In this document: positions 5,784-45,685 of the stretch, one piece after another
How the letters are laid out: each line of letters opens with the position of its first letter
Numbering within the stretch: position 1 is the first letter of the stretch
NCBI GenBank assembly: GCA_023129535.1
Contig: JAGMBW010000126.1
Location: 1-45,719 of the forward strand
Reading direction: 5' to 3'
DNA: 45,719 bases
Source of the DNA: Desulfobacterales bacterium
GTDB lineage: Bacteria > Desulfobacterota > Desulfobacteria > Desulfobacterales > C00003060
Notes under the pieces: generated by a model
The model's input: only the letters and a program-made list of their open reading frames with translations
The model's database searches: none
What the model was told of the DNA's origin: nothing
Translations under genes and position numbers: made by a program

Positions 5784-5991
5784 AACTTAGGGGCTTCGCC
5801 CCAATTGGAGTATTGGAGTGATGGGTTGGGAGCGGCTTTCAGCCGTGATTTCGTGTCCGTTGCCCGTGTCCGTTTTTAGTGTTTCCTGTTTGGTGCCGAC
5901 TGCTTACTGCCTACTGCCTACTGCCTACTGCTTACTGATTCCGCATAGCGCCTGTCGGCTTGAGGACATCCCCGCAATCCGCAATCCATTT
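5784..5991. repeat. Mosaic of repeat modules (GGGGC hairpin, GGAGTNNT, GGGAGCGGCTTTCAGCCG, CTACTGC x ~5, CGCAATC)
   Basis: Direct reading; several modules recur elsewhere in the window. Confidence 0.8.
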
Positions 5992-7246
5992 ATGTTCCCA
6001 TTTCCCACGATGTGAGATATTTTTTCTGCTCACGTGTGAGGGTATCAATGAGAATATTCATCGTTGCCAGCTTTTCCCTGGCAATCATTTTATCGATCAT
6101 CGCCGGTACGGGGTACACCTCGACAGGAAGCGCTTTATCTCTCTTTGCCATGTACTCGATGGAAAGGGCCTGGTTGGCAAAGCTCATGTCCATGACGCTG
6201 GAAGGATGTCCCTCTGCGGCCGCAAGGTTAATCAGGCGTCCATCTGCCAGCACATTGATCTTCTTGCCATTTTCTAAGACATATTCCATTGTGAAGGGGC
6301 GGATTTGTCGTTTGCTTTTGGCTAAAGTCTCAAGTCCCGGCAGGTCAATTTCTACATTGAAGTGTCCTGAGTTGCAAACGATGGCGCCATCCTTCATGAC
6401 CTTGAAATGTGGTTTCCTGATTACATTAAGATCACCGGTCAAGGTGCAAAATATGTCACCGATCTTAGCGGCCTCCTTGATAGGCATCACTGAATAACCG
6501 TCCATGATCGCCTCAAGGGCCCTTAATGGATCAACCTCTGTCACAATGACATTAGCGCCCATACCCCGTGCCCTCATGGCCACACCCCGGCCGCACCAGC
6601 CATAGCCACAAACTACAAATCGAGAGCCGGCAAGGAGGCGATTCGTCGCCCGGACAATGCCATCTATGGTACTTTGCCCGGTGCCGTACCGGTTGTCAAA
6701 GAGGTGTTTGGTGTTGGCATCGTTTACGGCGATGATGGGATATTTGAGCACGCCGTTAGCAGCCATGCTCCTCAGGCGGATAATTCCTGTGGTGGTTTCC
6801 TCTGTGCCGCCCAGCACAACATTCAACAGCTTCTTGCGTTTCGAGTGAAGCGTGGACACGAGATCGGCCCCGTCATCCATGGTGTACATGGGCTTTAGGT
6901 CGATCACCGCATCAATATGGTTATAATAGGTCTTGTTGTTTTCCCCCTTGATGGCAAACACGGGGATTCTGTCATGCTTGACCAGCGAGGCCGCCACATC
7001 ATCCTGTGTGCTCAACGGATTAGAAGCACACAGCCTCACCGTGGCGCCACCGGCCTTGAGGGTCTGTATGAGAGCAGCCGTCTCCGTGGTTACATGAAGG
7101 CAGGCCCCAAGGCGTGTCCCTCTTAAAGGCTTTTCCTTTGAAAATCTGGCCTTAATCCGCTCCAAAACCGGCATGCTCTGCCTGGCCCACTCAATACGTA
7201 GCTTTCCCCCTTTTGCCAGTTTTACATCCCTAATGTCAGATTCCAT
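5990..7246 (-). CDS. ahcY: Adenosylhomocysteinase
   Basis: 418 aa; [39 protein letters not shown]-binding motif; SAHase hallmarks; AAGGAAGG upstream of start. Confidence 0.95.
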
Positions 7247-7262
7247 TCAAACCTTCCTTTCG

Positions 7263-7320
7263 TTGGCCCGTTTAGCCCGTTTAGCCGGTTTGGCCCGTGG
7301 GAGCGGCTTCTAGCCGCGAG
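7263..7320. repeat. 9-mer array (AGCCCGTTT-type) followed by GGGAGCGGCTTCTAGCCGCGA module
   Basis: ggcccgttt agcccgttt agccggttt ggcccgtgg; the module also occurs at 5828-5848. Confidence 0.75.
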
Positions 7321-7361
7321 CCCCTTGAGCCCGTTTGCCTTGAGCTTTGAGCTTTCTGTAA

Positions 7362-7504
7362 GTTCTCAAAAAGTTCGGTTTTTTTCGTCATTGCGAGCGA
7401 AGCGAAGCAATCTCTTTGATAGCGGTGAGATTGCTTCGTCGCTAACGCTCCTCGCAATGACAGGAAATCGCAGTTTCAGGGAATTACCCGAGCTTTTTGA
7501 GAAG
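7362..7504. repeat. MITE-like nested palindrome containing the CATTGCGAGCGAAGCGAAGCAATCT / AGATTGCTTCGTCGC...CTCGCAATGACA repeat
   Basis: Outer arms GTTCTCAAAAAGTTCGG / CCGAGCTTTTTGAGAAG; inner long inverted repeat. Confidence 0.8.
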
Positions 7505-43958: not shown

Positions 43959-44445
43959 AATGAGAGTTTCAGGTTTAACCATAGACTCGGCTTCAAACAC
44001 CCCTATCGTCATCTTGAAAGCCGTCAATGGAGAATACGCACTTCCCATTTGGATCGGTATCCTGGAGGCGACCGCCATTGCCACAGAACTGGAGAAGGTC
44101 CGCTTCGCTCGCCCCATGACCCATGATCTGTTCAAGAATTTCATTGATGTGCTGAAGGTAAAAATATCCAGGGTGGAAGTGTGCGATCTGAGAGATAATA
44201 CATTCTTTGCCCAGATCTATTTCTCTCTTGATGGCCAGCCATACAATATAGATGCCCGCCCCAGCGATGCTATTGCCCTGGCACTCAGGGCCGAGTGTCC
44301 CATATTTGTTGCCGACACCGTAGTCCAGAAATCAAAGCGGCTGGACAGGGAGCCTGAAGCATGGGACAAGAGCGAAGAGGGGATGAAATGGAAGGACTAT
44401 TTAGAGAAGCTTTCTCCTGACGATTTTGGCAAATATAAGATGTAG
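43948..44445 (+). CDS. Bifunctional nuclease-domain (DUF151) protein
   Basis: MLHEMRVSGLTIDSASNTPIVILKAVNGEYALPIWIGILEATAIA; DARPSDAIALALRAECPIFV; overlaps the miaB end. Confidence 0.88.
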   Translation: MLHEMRVSGLTIDSASNTPIVILKAVNGEYALPIWIGILEATAIATELEKVRFARPMTHDLFKNFIDVLKVKISRVEVCDLRDNTFFAQIYFSLDGQPYNIDARPSDAIALALRAECPIFVADTVVQKSKRLDREPEAWDKSEEGMKWKDYLEKLSPDDFGKYKM

Positions 44446-44451
44446 GCGGCC

Positions 44452-45087
44452 GTGATTGATCTCCACACTCATTCTATTTTCAGCGATGGCGTCCTGGTTC
44501 CATCCGAATTGGTTCACCGGGCAGAAGTACTCGGTATCAAGGCCATAGGTATTACGGACCACGGTGATGCCTCCAACCTCGATTTTATCATCCCCCGCAT
44601 TGTGGCTGTATTGGAAAGATTGAATTACGTCAACCGGATCAAGGCCGTACCCGGCATCGAGTTGACGCATATCCCGCCCTCTCAAATCGCGCAGTTGGCC
44701 GAAGAGGCGCGTTCCCTTGGGGCCAAAGTTGTTGTCGTACACGGGGAAACCATTGCAGAGCCTGTCATTCCTGGTACCAATCGCGCAGCCCTGGTTGCAG
44801 ATATTGACATCCTGGCCCACCCGGGCCTCATCTCCGAGGAAGAGGTGCGAATGGCAGCGGAGAAAGGAATTTTTCTGGAAATTTCGGCTCGCAAGGGACA
44901 CAGCCTGACAAACGGCCATGTGGCGAAGTTGGCTAAGAAACTGGGCGCGGAATTGGTCGTAAACTCGGATGCCCACGAACCTTCAGATCTAGTCACTGAA
45001 GAACAGGCAAGAAGAATCGTCCTTGGCGCGGGTTTGAGCCGGGACGATTTTGAACGTATGCAGAAAAACGCCGAGTCCCTCCTTTGA
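44452..45087 (+). CDS. PHP domain phosphatase (histidinol phosphatase family)
   Basis: IDLHTHSIFSDGVL, GITDHGDASNLDF, VNSDAHEPSD; GTG start. Confidence 0.85.
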   Translation: MIDLHTHSIFSDGVLVPSELVHRAEVLGIKAIGITDHGDASNLDFIIPRIVAVLERLNYVNRIKAVPGIELTHIPPSQIAQLAEEARSLGAKVVVVHGETIAEPVIPGTNRAALVADIDILAHPGLISEEEVRMAAEKGIFLEISARKGHSLTNGHVAKLAKKLGAELVVNSDAHEPSDLVTEEQARRIVLGAGLSRDDFERMQKNAESLL

Positions 45088-45109
45088 TCAAAAACCAACA
45101 CTTGTCATT

Positions 45110-45685
45110 TTATTTGCTCCATGCTCTGTGCTCCATGCTCTGTACTCCATGCTCTGTGCTCTTATAAAATCGGTCCTTTTCGCTGTAAATGCATCCGCAG
45201 TATTGCTGGCGGTACATGTTGAGACGCTTTGAGGTCTCAATCCCTTCCTTCCAACCCTCTCGAAAGTCCCTGTACAGGAACGGCACACCATACGATTTTC
45301 CAAGGCTCTCCCCGATCGAGCGTATCATGTCGTGCTTCTGGAATTTGCTCTGCAAAAGGGTGGAGGTGAAACAATCAAACTTGCCGTGTCTGGCAATAAT
45401 TGCTGCGGTCTTGAGGCGGTCGTGGTAGCAGTAATTACAACGATTTTCTTCACGAAACACCACGTTTTGCAGGAATGTTTCCATATCATAGCCATCCTGA
45501 TAGATGACCTTTAAACCAACCTGCTCAGCATAGATTTTGAGGGCGTTCTCACGGCGCTGGCATTCCTGGTAAGGGTGGATATTGCGGTTGTAAAAAAAGC
45601 CTATGACCTCGAACCGCTCTGATCGAAGGATCTTCAAGGGATATATGGCGCAGGGCGCGCAGCAAATATGAAGCAGAGTTTTCAT
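45110..45685 (-). CDS. queH: Epoxyqueuosine reductase QueH
   Basis: LLHICCAPCAIYPL, CNYCYHDRL, QQYCGCIYSEKDRF; C-terminal tail encoded by a 7-mer repeat. Confidence 0.88.
   Translation of the reverse strand: MKTLLHICCAPCAIYPLKILRSERFEVIGFFYNRNIHPYQECQRRENALKIYAEQVGLKVIYQDGYDMETFLQNVVFREENRCNYCYHDRLKTAAIIARHGKFDCFTSTLLQSKFQKHDMIRSIGESLGKSYGVPFLYRDFREGWKEGIETSKRLNMYRQQYCGCIYSEKDRFYKSTEHGVQSMEHRAWSK
45115..45163. repeat. TGCTCYR 7-mer array overlapping the 3' end of queH
   Basis: tgctccatgctctgtgctccatgctctgtactccatgctctgtgctc. Confidence 0.85.

Follow-up and report, generated by a model that had tools for sequence, protein, structure and literature searches.

Intergenic arrays of degenerate 7-9-nt units in a Desulfobacterales genome share an inward polarity of their G-rich strand

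The stretch of DNA analyzed here (45,719 nt, hereafter the window) forms contig 31 in G000, a draft genome of 2.9 Mb whose closest named relatives are uncultured Desulfobacterales. Its gene content is ordinary (SAM synthase, panC/panD, rpsA, IMPDH, dnaE, mutS, recJ and others), and between its genes lie hairpin elements, each with both arms made of tandem degenerate 7-9-nt units from a single family, a description that is well supported. Our main new result is a polarity rule that the original prediction for this window had missed: the G-rich strand of the arrays nearly always runs 5' to 3' toward the center of the gap, which is likewise well supported and holds across dozens of units in at least two phyla. 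Compared genomes carry G-numbers (G003, G005, G007, G015, G017, G020 and others) and compared loci L-numbers.

Results

Our own scan for periods of 7-9 nt returned 44 arrays in the window, in agreement with those listed by Tandem Repeats Finder (TRF). An array was present in 18 of the 25 gene gaps of at least 50 bp, in line with the prediction that most gaps carry such units, and about 15 loci had a facing reverse-complement array, where at least 12 had been predicted. Thirteen of these were reported automatically by a scan for facing reverse-complement arrays (pair scan) and two (31876/31917 and 42355/42393) were added by eye and folding. Statistics were taken on 346 kb (period counts) and 557 kb (location) of G000. 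Arrays of periods 7, 8 and 9 numbered 130, 68 and 23 (221 in total) against 1, 0 and 0 in first-order Markov shuffles, while periods 5, 6, 10 and 11 were nearly empty (0, 1, 5 and 2 arrays). Inverted pairs numbered 55 against 8.8 expected when units were permuted among arrays (maximum of 17 over 200 permutations), a roughly six-fold excess, and direct pairs 13 against 8.2; the corresponding values in G017 were 22 against 3.0 and 5 against 2.9. The predicted observation is confirmed. Assembly artefact, the alternative named along with the prediction, is unlikely, since an independent assembly (contig coverage 881) contains a near-identical ortholog of the element at 33950, and arrays follow synteny.

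Most arrays were intergenic (307 of 342, in DNA that is 83% coding). Element starts cluster at the upstream stop codon, 24 of 41 lying within -16..+15; distances on the stop side bunch near 0 and those on the start side are widely scattered. Divergent gaps are poor in arrays, with 0.93 array-bearing gaps per kb versus 2.2-2.5 in other gaps, and on the sense strand arrays are C-rich near start codons and G-rich near stops. Gene calls, and with them the left and right gap halves used below, come from a simple in-house gene finder, so that positions are approximate.

Of the 89 scorable pairs in five genomes, 81 had the G-rich strand as their 5' arm (G000 49:3, G017 18:2, G020 3:1, a Nitrospinae genome 11:0 and the Desulfobacterales metagenome-assembled genome MAG8 0:2). 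Counted by unit family, 24 of 27 were G-first (24:3, p=5e-5). This polarity is a property of the palindrome, the same on whichever strand is read, and concerns G versus C; T versus A gave no signal. Ordinary intergenic hairpins of the same five genomes do not follow the rule (21:36, 6:18, 2:9, 6:3 and 12:15). Arrays outside called pairs also point inward by position, with G-rich to C-rich ratios of 77:28 in the left half of the gap and 23:94 in the right half (p=4e-16). The same was seen in convergent gaps for paired and unpaired arrays together (16:4 left, 4:13 right, p=9e-4) and in divergent gaps for unpaired arrays (12:6 left, 3:14 right, p=0.006), so that arrays on both sides point inward whether the flanking genes are codirectional, convergent or divergent. 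A cryptic partner was found for 156 of the 280 arrays outside called pairs; those with no detectable partner retain a conserved core and still point inward (27:15 left, 9:42 right, p=5e-6). Since the polarity holds in all gap types and in partnerless arrays, it is a property of each gap side rather than of transcription direction. Polarity at the level of the transcript was also rejected because unpaired arrays are about equally frequent in sense and antisense (C-rich versus G-rich sense 126:106, with C-rich sense not depleted). Smaller samples agree (p=0.04 for other congeners, p=0.02 for other genera and phyla). Finally, a two-layer G-quadruplex (G4) motif occurs in 38 of 95 pairs, and G-first polarity is equally clear without GG in the unit (38:6) and in the 57 pairs without the motif (45:6), which rejects G-quadruplexes as the general cause.

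The arms of one element agree in unit core and are not copies of each other. Spacers of the two arms showed no excess likeness (identity 0.06-0.08, versus 0.17 between different elements), and swapped arms paired slightly better than own arms when compared at a constant core (own better in 2 of 13, p=0.01); the prediction that complementarity is by family, not copy by copy, agrees with both results. A first duplex test favoring own-arm pairing was dropped, being confounded by subfamilies; fixing the core turned its result around. Because the arms share no spacers, an origin by inverted duplication through template switching was rejected. The six elements tested folded better than shuffles (z -3.5 to -10.2). 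Some of the arms listed in the prediction pair only loosely (TTCGGAT with ATTCCGC, GTTCCGA with AACCCGC).

Each unit consists of a conserved core of 5-8 nt and a spacer of 1-2 nt. At least 22 paired families with periods 7, 8 and 9 occur in one genome, many of their units lacking GG. TGGAGTRN and GATTGAY dominate in G000, where the TGGAGTNN family reaches about 50 arrays per 557 kb; with families recurring in this way and nested composites dispersed, the earlier description of the units as unrelated was too strong. Family counts among congeners range from 0 to more than 200 and vary independently by family: TGGAGT triplets number 180 in G000, 226 in G020, 35 in G017 and 0 in G007, and GATTGA triplets 124, 47, 214 and 6, respectively. 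A phylum-wide sample of 297 genomes contained the GATTGA family in 8. Exact units common to G000 and G017 numbered 37 against a letter-shuffled expectation of 3.3, and those common with the Nitrospinae genome showed a slight excess (5 versus 1.8). The lexicon of units is finite and species-specific, and within each species its amplification goes by family.

Within TGGAGTRN arrays the core is conserved and the spacer bases are nearly uncorrelated (adjacent identity 0.22, versus 0.17 between arrays). The CTAAAGTG core is followed by 1 nt (C/T) 34 times and by 2 nt (AG/AA/AT) 34 times. For GATTG arrays the correlation between neighbors is higher (0.50 versus 0.18), and local duplication therefore contributes. 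By contrast, a slippage array of the Escherichia coli plasmid pEC488-3, the only one found when PLSDB was searched for the pattern, consists of 13 ATTGCTCC followed by ATTACTCC units, in blocks within which the units are identical. This 8-mer array (L170:2940-3135) looks like simple slippage and lies in a region matching thousands of enterobacterial plasmids. A 50-kb Anabaena plasmid carried two 7-mer arrays and was uninformative. We also noted, in a Desulfobacterales metagenome-assembled genome, a 275-bp GGATGCT/GGATACT heptamer array running into ATTGGCGG 8-mers (L063:15182-15456).

Comparison of orthologous gaps, a check proposed earlier, shows that families are replaced in the same slot. 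Between IMPDH and dnaE, four relatives have a TAATG gene overlap and no array, G000 has a TGGAGTNN (TGGAGT) pair, and G017 has a GATTGAY pair enclosing an inner GTGTCAG pair. The mutS-amidase gap carries TGGAGTNN, TGGAATNN or TTGAGTNG across congeners; outer TGGAGT arms are common to G000 and G020, both arms are of TGGAAT in G015, and no two of the three agree in their inner contents. The 33950 element has an ortholog in G017 with small unit changes. Empty sites exist, and array-less relatives contain seed-like matches at two sites, the end of mutS (ATGGAG) and the end of IMPDH (GAGTAATG). In the HU-Sua5 gap, CTAAAGTG arrays in G017 correspond to a small GTGCCTAAA stem in L053. Dispersed composites include TGGAGT[AGGCGCA], which occurs at L001, L018, L016 and in G020, and GGTTCA[AGAAGTC], which occurs in the window and at L007:1690-1880, partly at L002:10168-10240. 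Near-identical dispersed copies that include the interior were seen for some composites and not for most loops. Of the original interpretation, one architecture carried by many units and an origin beyond the copying of a single repeat are supported, the arms being non-copies, although copying plays a part; structural selection, also suggested there, is weakened by own arms pairing no better and by partnerless arrays keeping core and polarity. As a separate observation, mutS of G020, G017 and G005 (L035, L036 and L037, approximately 1400-1530) contains, near residue 95, a GC-rich insertion (CCCGCCTCGCCTGAGCCCG.. / ..GGCGGGCAGG) that is in frame and leaves the reading frame open.

The elements of the window are given here with 5' arms on the plus strand and 3' arms on the minus strand. 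TGGAGTRN (8 nt) faces NYACTCCA in the IMPDH-dnaE gap (28069..28107 and 28201..28241, both from the pair scan), downstream of dnaE (31876..31909, TRF, z -7.0; 31917..31959, TRF and folding) and upstream of mutS (34018..34053, pair scan, with an ortholog in G017, z -7.9; 34084..34117, pair scan). It also forms the outer arms of a nested element at the mutS end, with 8 units at 36758..36826, overlapping the gene, and about 15 at 36978..37102 (TRF, pair scan); the inner arms are GTTCCGR (7 nt, 36840..36863) and the loosely complementary AACCCGC (36911..36965), both from TRF. GATTGAY (7 nt) occurs at 13983..14025, its start overlapping the end of the M16 peptidase gene, and faces TCAATCR at 14249..14281 across a 223-bp loop holding palindromes like repetitive extragenic palindromic (REP) sequences. 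It recurs at 25664..25699, where the start overlaps the HU gene end, opposite its reverse complement at 25762..25801 (pair scan), and at 42355..42388 (TRF), folding (z -3.5) with CAATCAACAATC... of irregular spacing (7/11) at 42393..42458 (TRF, folding). TTGGGTTYA (9 nt, 42464..42508) and AACCCAACA (42510..42573) come from the pair scan.

A second nested element, the GGTTCA[AGAAGTC] composite (22135..22288), has outer arms of GGGTTCAN (8 nt, 22135..22177) and TGAACCCN (22257..22288, pair scan) around TCAGAAG / CTCTGAT units at 22184..22241, for which no single strand is given. GTTATTM units (7 nt, 8877..8903; TRF, pair scan) fold with their reverse complement at 8908..8934 (TRF, pair scan, folding) with z -6.7. 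The pair scan further gave AGGCNCA (7 nt, 17492..17516) with CCTTGTG (17523..17552); GTTGAGTN (8 nt, 21301..21335, z -7.3) with its reverse complement (21348..21383, also by folding); GATTTCG (7 nt, 24336..24365) with the loosely complementary ATTCCGC (24417..24457); GTTGAGCCG (9 nt, 26412..26436, z -10.2) with CGGCTCAAC (26442..26472, also by folding); and ACGAAARN (8 nt, 32737..32771), in which G and C counts are about equal, facing TTTTCGTG at 32945..32979, an array that TRF carries on to 32995. Two minus-strand arrays obtained no partner from the pair scan: ACTGCYT at 5899..5940, whose G-rich strand enters the gap from the right edge, and CTCACCGG followed by ACTGCCT at 7511..7588, at the right edge of its gap.

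Other repeats share these gaps. REP-like palindromes (GTCATTGCGAGCGAAGCGAAGCAATCTC..., GTCATTCCCGCGAAGGCGGGAATCCA) occur in gaps and loops (window 7380-7470 and 14170-14248; L144, L137). A recurrent short element, (G)CGCAAGCTTCACTTCGTGTC, lies in or beside arrays and splits one of them (window 24460-24490 and 36865-36885; gaps of L058 and L051). Inverted elements of AAATCCCCCTTT..AAAGGGGGATTT type are found in several gaps (window 2583-2644, 9450-9600 and 18690-18770), and a 686-bp gap (window 10577-11262) holds a CCCTGGCCCAGAC tandem, GCGCCAGGGCGGGC, and two copies each of TCTGGTTACAATGCTCTGCGTTGTAACC and CGTTCCCACGCAGAGCATGGGAACGAGAAT.

Discussion

As a tentative explanation, we propose that the arms may be built by iterative short-template extension of 3' ends on both sides of a break. 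Anatomy, polarity, non-copy arms, family replacement and nesting are what the data show; the breakage, template, enzyme and order of steps are what we infer. A gap would break, typically in the middle of a hairpin already present; both 3' ends would be extended, unit by unit, by repeated copying of one short C-rich template, yielding G-rich units with a loose spacer; and the extended ends would then be joined. The expected outcome would be facing arms of one family with different spacers, an inward G-strand, and nested arms that are newest at the center, and now and then a whole element would be copied into another gap. Given the inward polarity and the free spacers, extension of 3' ends fits better than slippage, inverted duplication, terminators or G-quadruplexes. 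Also in its favor are the mutS gaps of G000, G015 and G020, with outer arms in common and differing inner ones, and the seed-like matches at two sites. In telomeres, too, the G-strand runs toward the break. A precedent comes from mammals, where telomerase is reported to put in telomeric repeats at double-strand breaks (PMC2246262).

Several points weigh against 3'-end extension. A PF00078 search gave no reverse transcriptase match in G000 or in array-rich G003 (a diverged or extrachromosomal enzyme could have escaped it), presence of reverse transcriptases in the genus does not track array counts, and no candidate enzyme or template was found for repeat addition. Two pairs of genome G061 run outward, families within a genome may share descent so that 24:3 overstates independence, the seed and stratigraphy evidence comes from few loci, and the dispersed composites mean that some elements, at a minimum, spread whole. 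Two or more processes may be at work, and RNA-level selection and mobile hairpins are serious rivals. The wider idea that several bacterial lineages practice telomere-like break healing, with G-rich 7-9-nt repeats added to both 3' ends from one template family per event and then joined, without a recognizable reverse transcriptase, seems to us unlikely.

Selection at the RNA level is possible if somewhat doubtful: slippage arrays would arise either way, and only harmless or useful hairpins in 3' untranslated regions, or insulators, would persist. Placing the G-rich arm first would avoid Rho loading on a free C-rich stretch, or Shine-Dalgarno-like G-rich arrays near starts. The strong folds, the element starts at stop codons, the scarcity in divergent gaps and the shift from C-rich sense arrays near starts to G-rich ones near stops all fit. 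However, the polarity is also present in convergent gaps, where no start codon is near, and in partnerless arrays, which keep their cores; own arms pair no better than swapped ones, and C-rich sense arrays are not depleted overall. Nor is there an excess of T-tracts after the stem (7 of 110 flanks versus 5% of random intergenic 14-mers in G000; 0 of 44 in G017), and intrinsic terminators were rejected on this ground. We are more doubtful of dispersed palindromic mobile elements of several lineages, resembling REPs or miniature inverted-repeat transposable elements, in which the arm units would be transposase or host-factor sites expanding by slippage and G-first a common type of element end. 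Dispersal of the two composites, family counts that explode independently per species, and empty sites speak for them. Yet target-site duplication is at chance (a shared word of at least 5 in 8 of 84 elements, 7.5 expected), loops mostly differ within a family, and partnerless arrays share the polarity. Arrays are rare at the 30 Y1_Tnp loci of five genomes and absent from the edges of the three genes whose flanks were read closely, which lends no support to mobilization by REP-associated tyrosine transposases.

Plain replication slippage on pre-existing terminator-like stems is improbable. Here 7-9 nt would be the preferred slip of the polymerase, as in the Mrazek hypothesis cited in PMC4692102, the arms would expand separately and the lexicon would reflect common descent. 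It accommodates the 7-9 period window and the small GTGCCTAAA stem of the HU-Sua5 gap, but explains neither polarity, spacer grammar nor weak neighbor correlation, and ordinary stems in these genomes are C-first if anything. Least credible by far is that the arms function as G-quadruplexes or i-motifs, the role proposed for heptamers of Xanthomonas and Nostoc. Xanthomonas repeats share the architecture and location (PMC4692102), and G4 motifs do occur in a minority of pairs, yet the polarity is as clear where the motif or GG is missing.

Repeats of this kind are already known, and the polarity rule has so far come from one repeat in Xanthomonas and Nostoc, descriptions that the original prediction had overlooked together with the Nostoc trnL introns (PMC4476775). 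Rehm et al. (2015, PMC4692102) reported degenerate (GGGANTN) intergenic heptamers, GGGAATC in Xanthomonas and GGGGA(C/T)T in Nostoc. The former make 70-75 convergent pairs per genome, lie nearer the upstream open reading frame (28 versus 160 nt), are scarce between divergent frames, occupy the coding strand downstream and the non-coding strand upstream of frames, and vary in length between close species; G-quadruplexes were proposed and no function was found. Our arrays resemble them in being degenerate, intergenic tandem 7-mers with an inward G-strand, near the upstream gene and scarce between divergent genes. Unlike that single G-tract family per genome, they comprise many paired families of three periods, with nested arms and family replacement at orthologous gaps, and G-quadruplex potential is not general. 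What our arrays add is the number of families, a polarity independent of G4 and of pairing, non-copy arms, nesting and family replacement.

In the P6b stem of the Nostoc trnL group I intron, class I (TDNGATT) and class II (NNTGAGT) heptamers repeatedly replace each other (PMC4476775). The degenerate-heptamer stem is alike and its motifs resemble GATTGAY and TTGAGTNG, but it is one intron site under splicing selection, whereas our arrays occupy hundreds of intergenic sites; Rfam gave no match in the window, hence no such intron location. The TAACTGA repeats of Beggiatoaceae and cyanobacteria (169 direct sets and one inverted repeat in the main genome; PMC4679880) are also intergenic tandem heptamers of species-specific abundance, but form one direct family, mostly ahead of start codons. 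Mammalian interstitial telomeric sequences (PMC2246262) are likewise short G-rich repeats in internal positions, and their addition at double-strand breaks has been proposed; there telomerase is known, whereas no reverse transcriptase was found in G000 and one template cannot make dozens of units. The defense reverse transcriptase DRT10 makes tandem-repeat DNA in bacteria from a short RNA template, but its product is protein-primed, with no known entry into the chromosome (PMC12632851), and G000 has no RVT_1 gene.

Intergenic heptamer repeats of bacteria have long been on record with no cause assigned to them, and the best-studied case has been read through G-quadruplexes. With the polarity rule, the question shifts from the function of the sequence to the process that places a G-rich 3' strand toward the middle of the gap, a question testable in culturable Xanthomonas or Nostoc.

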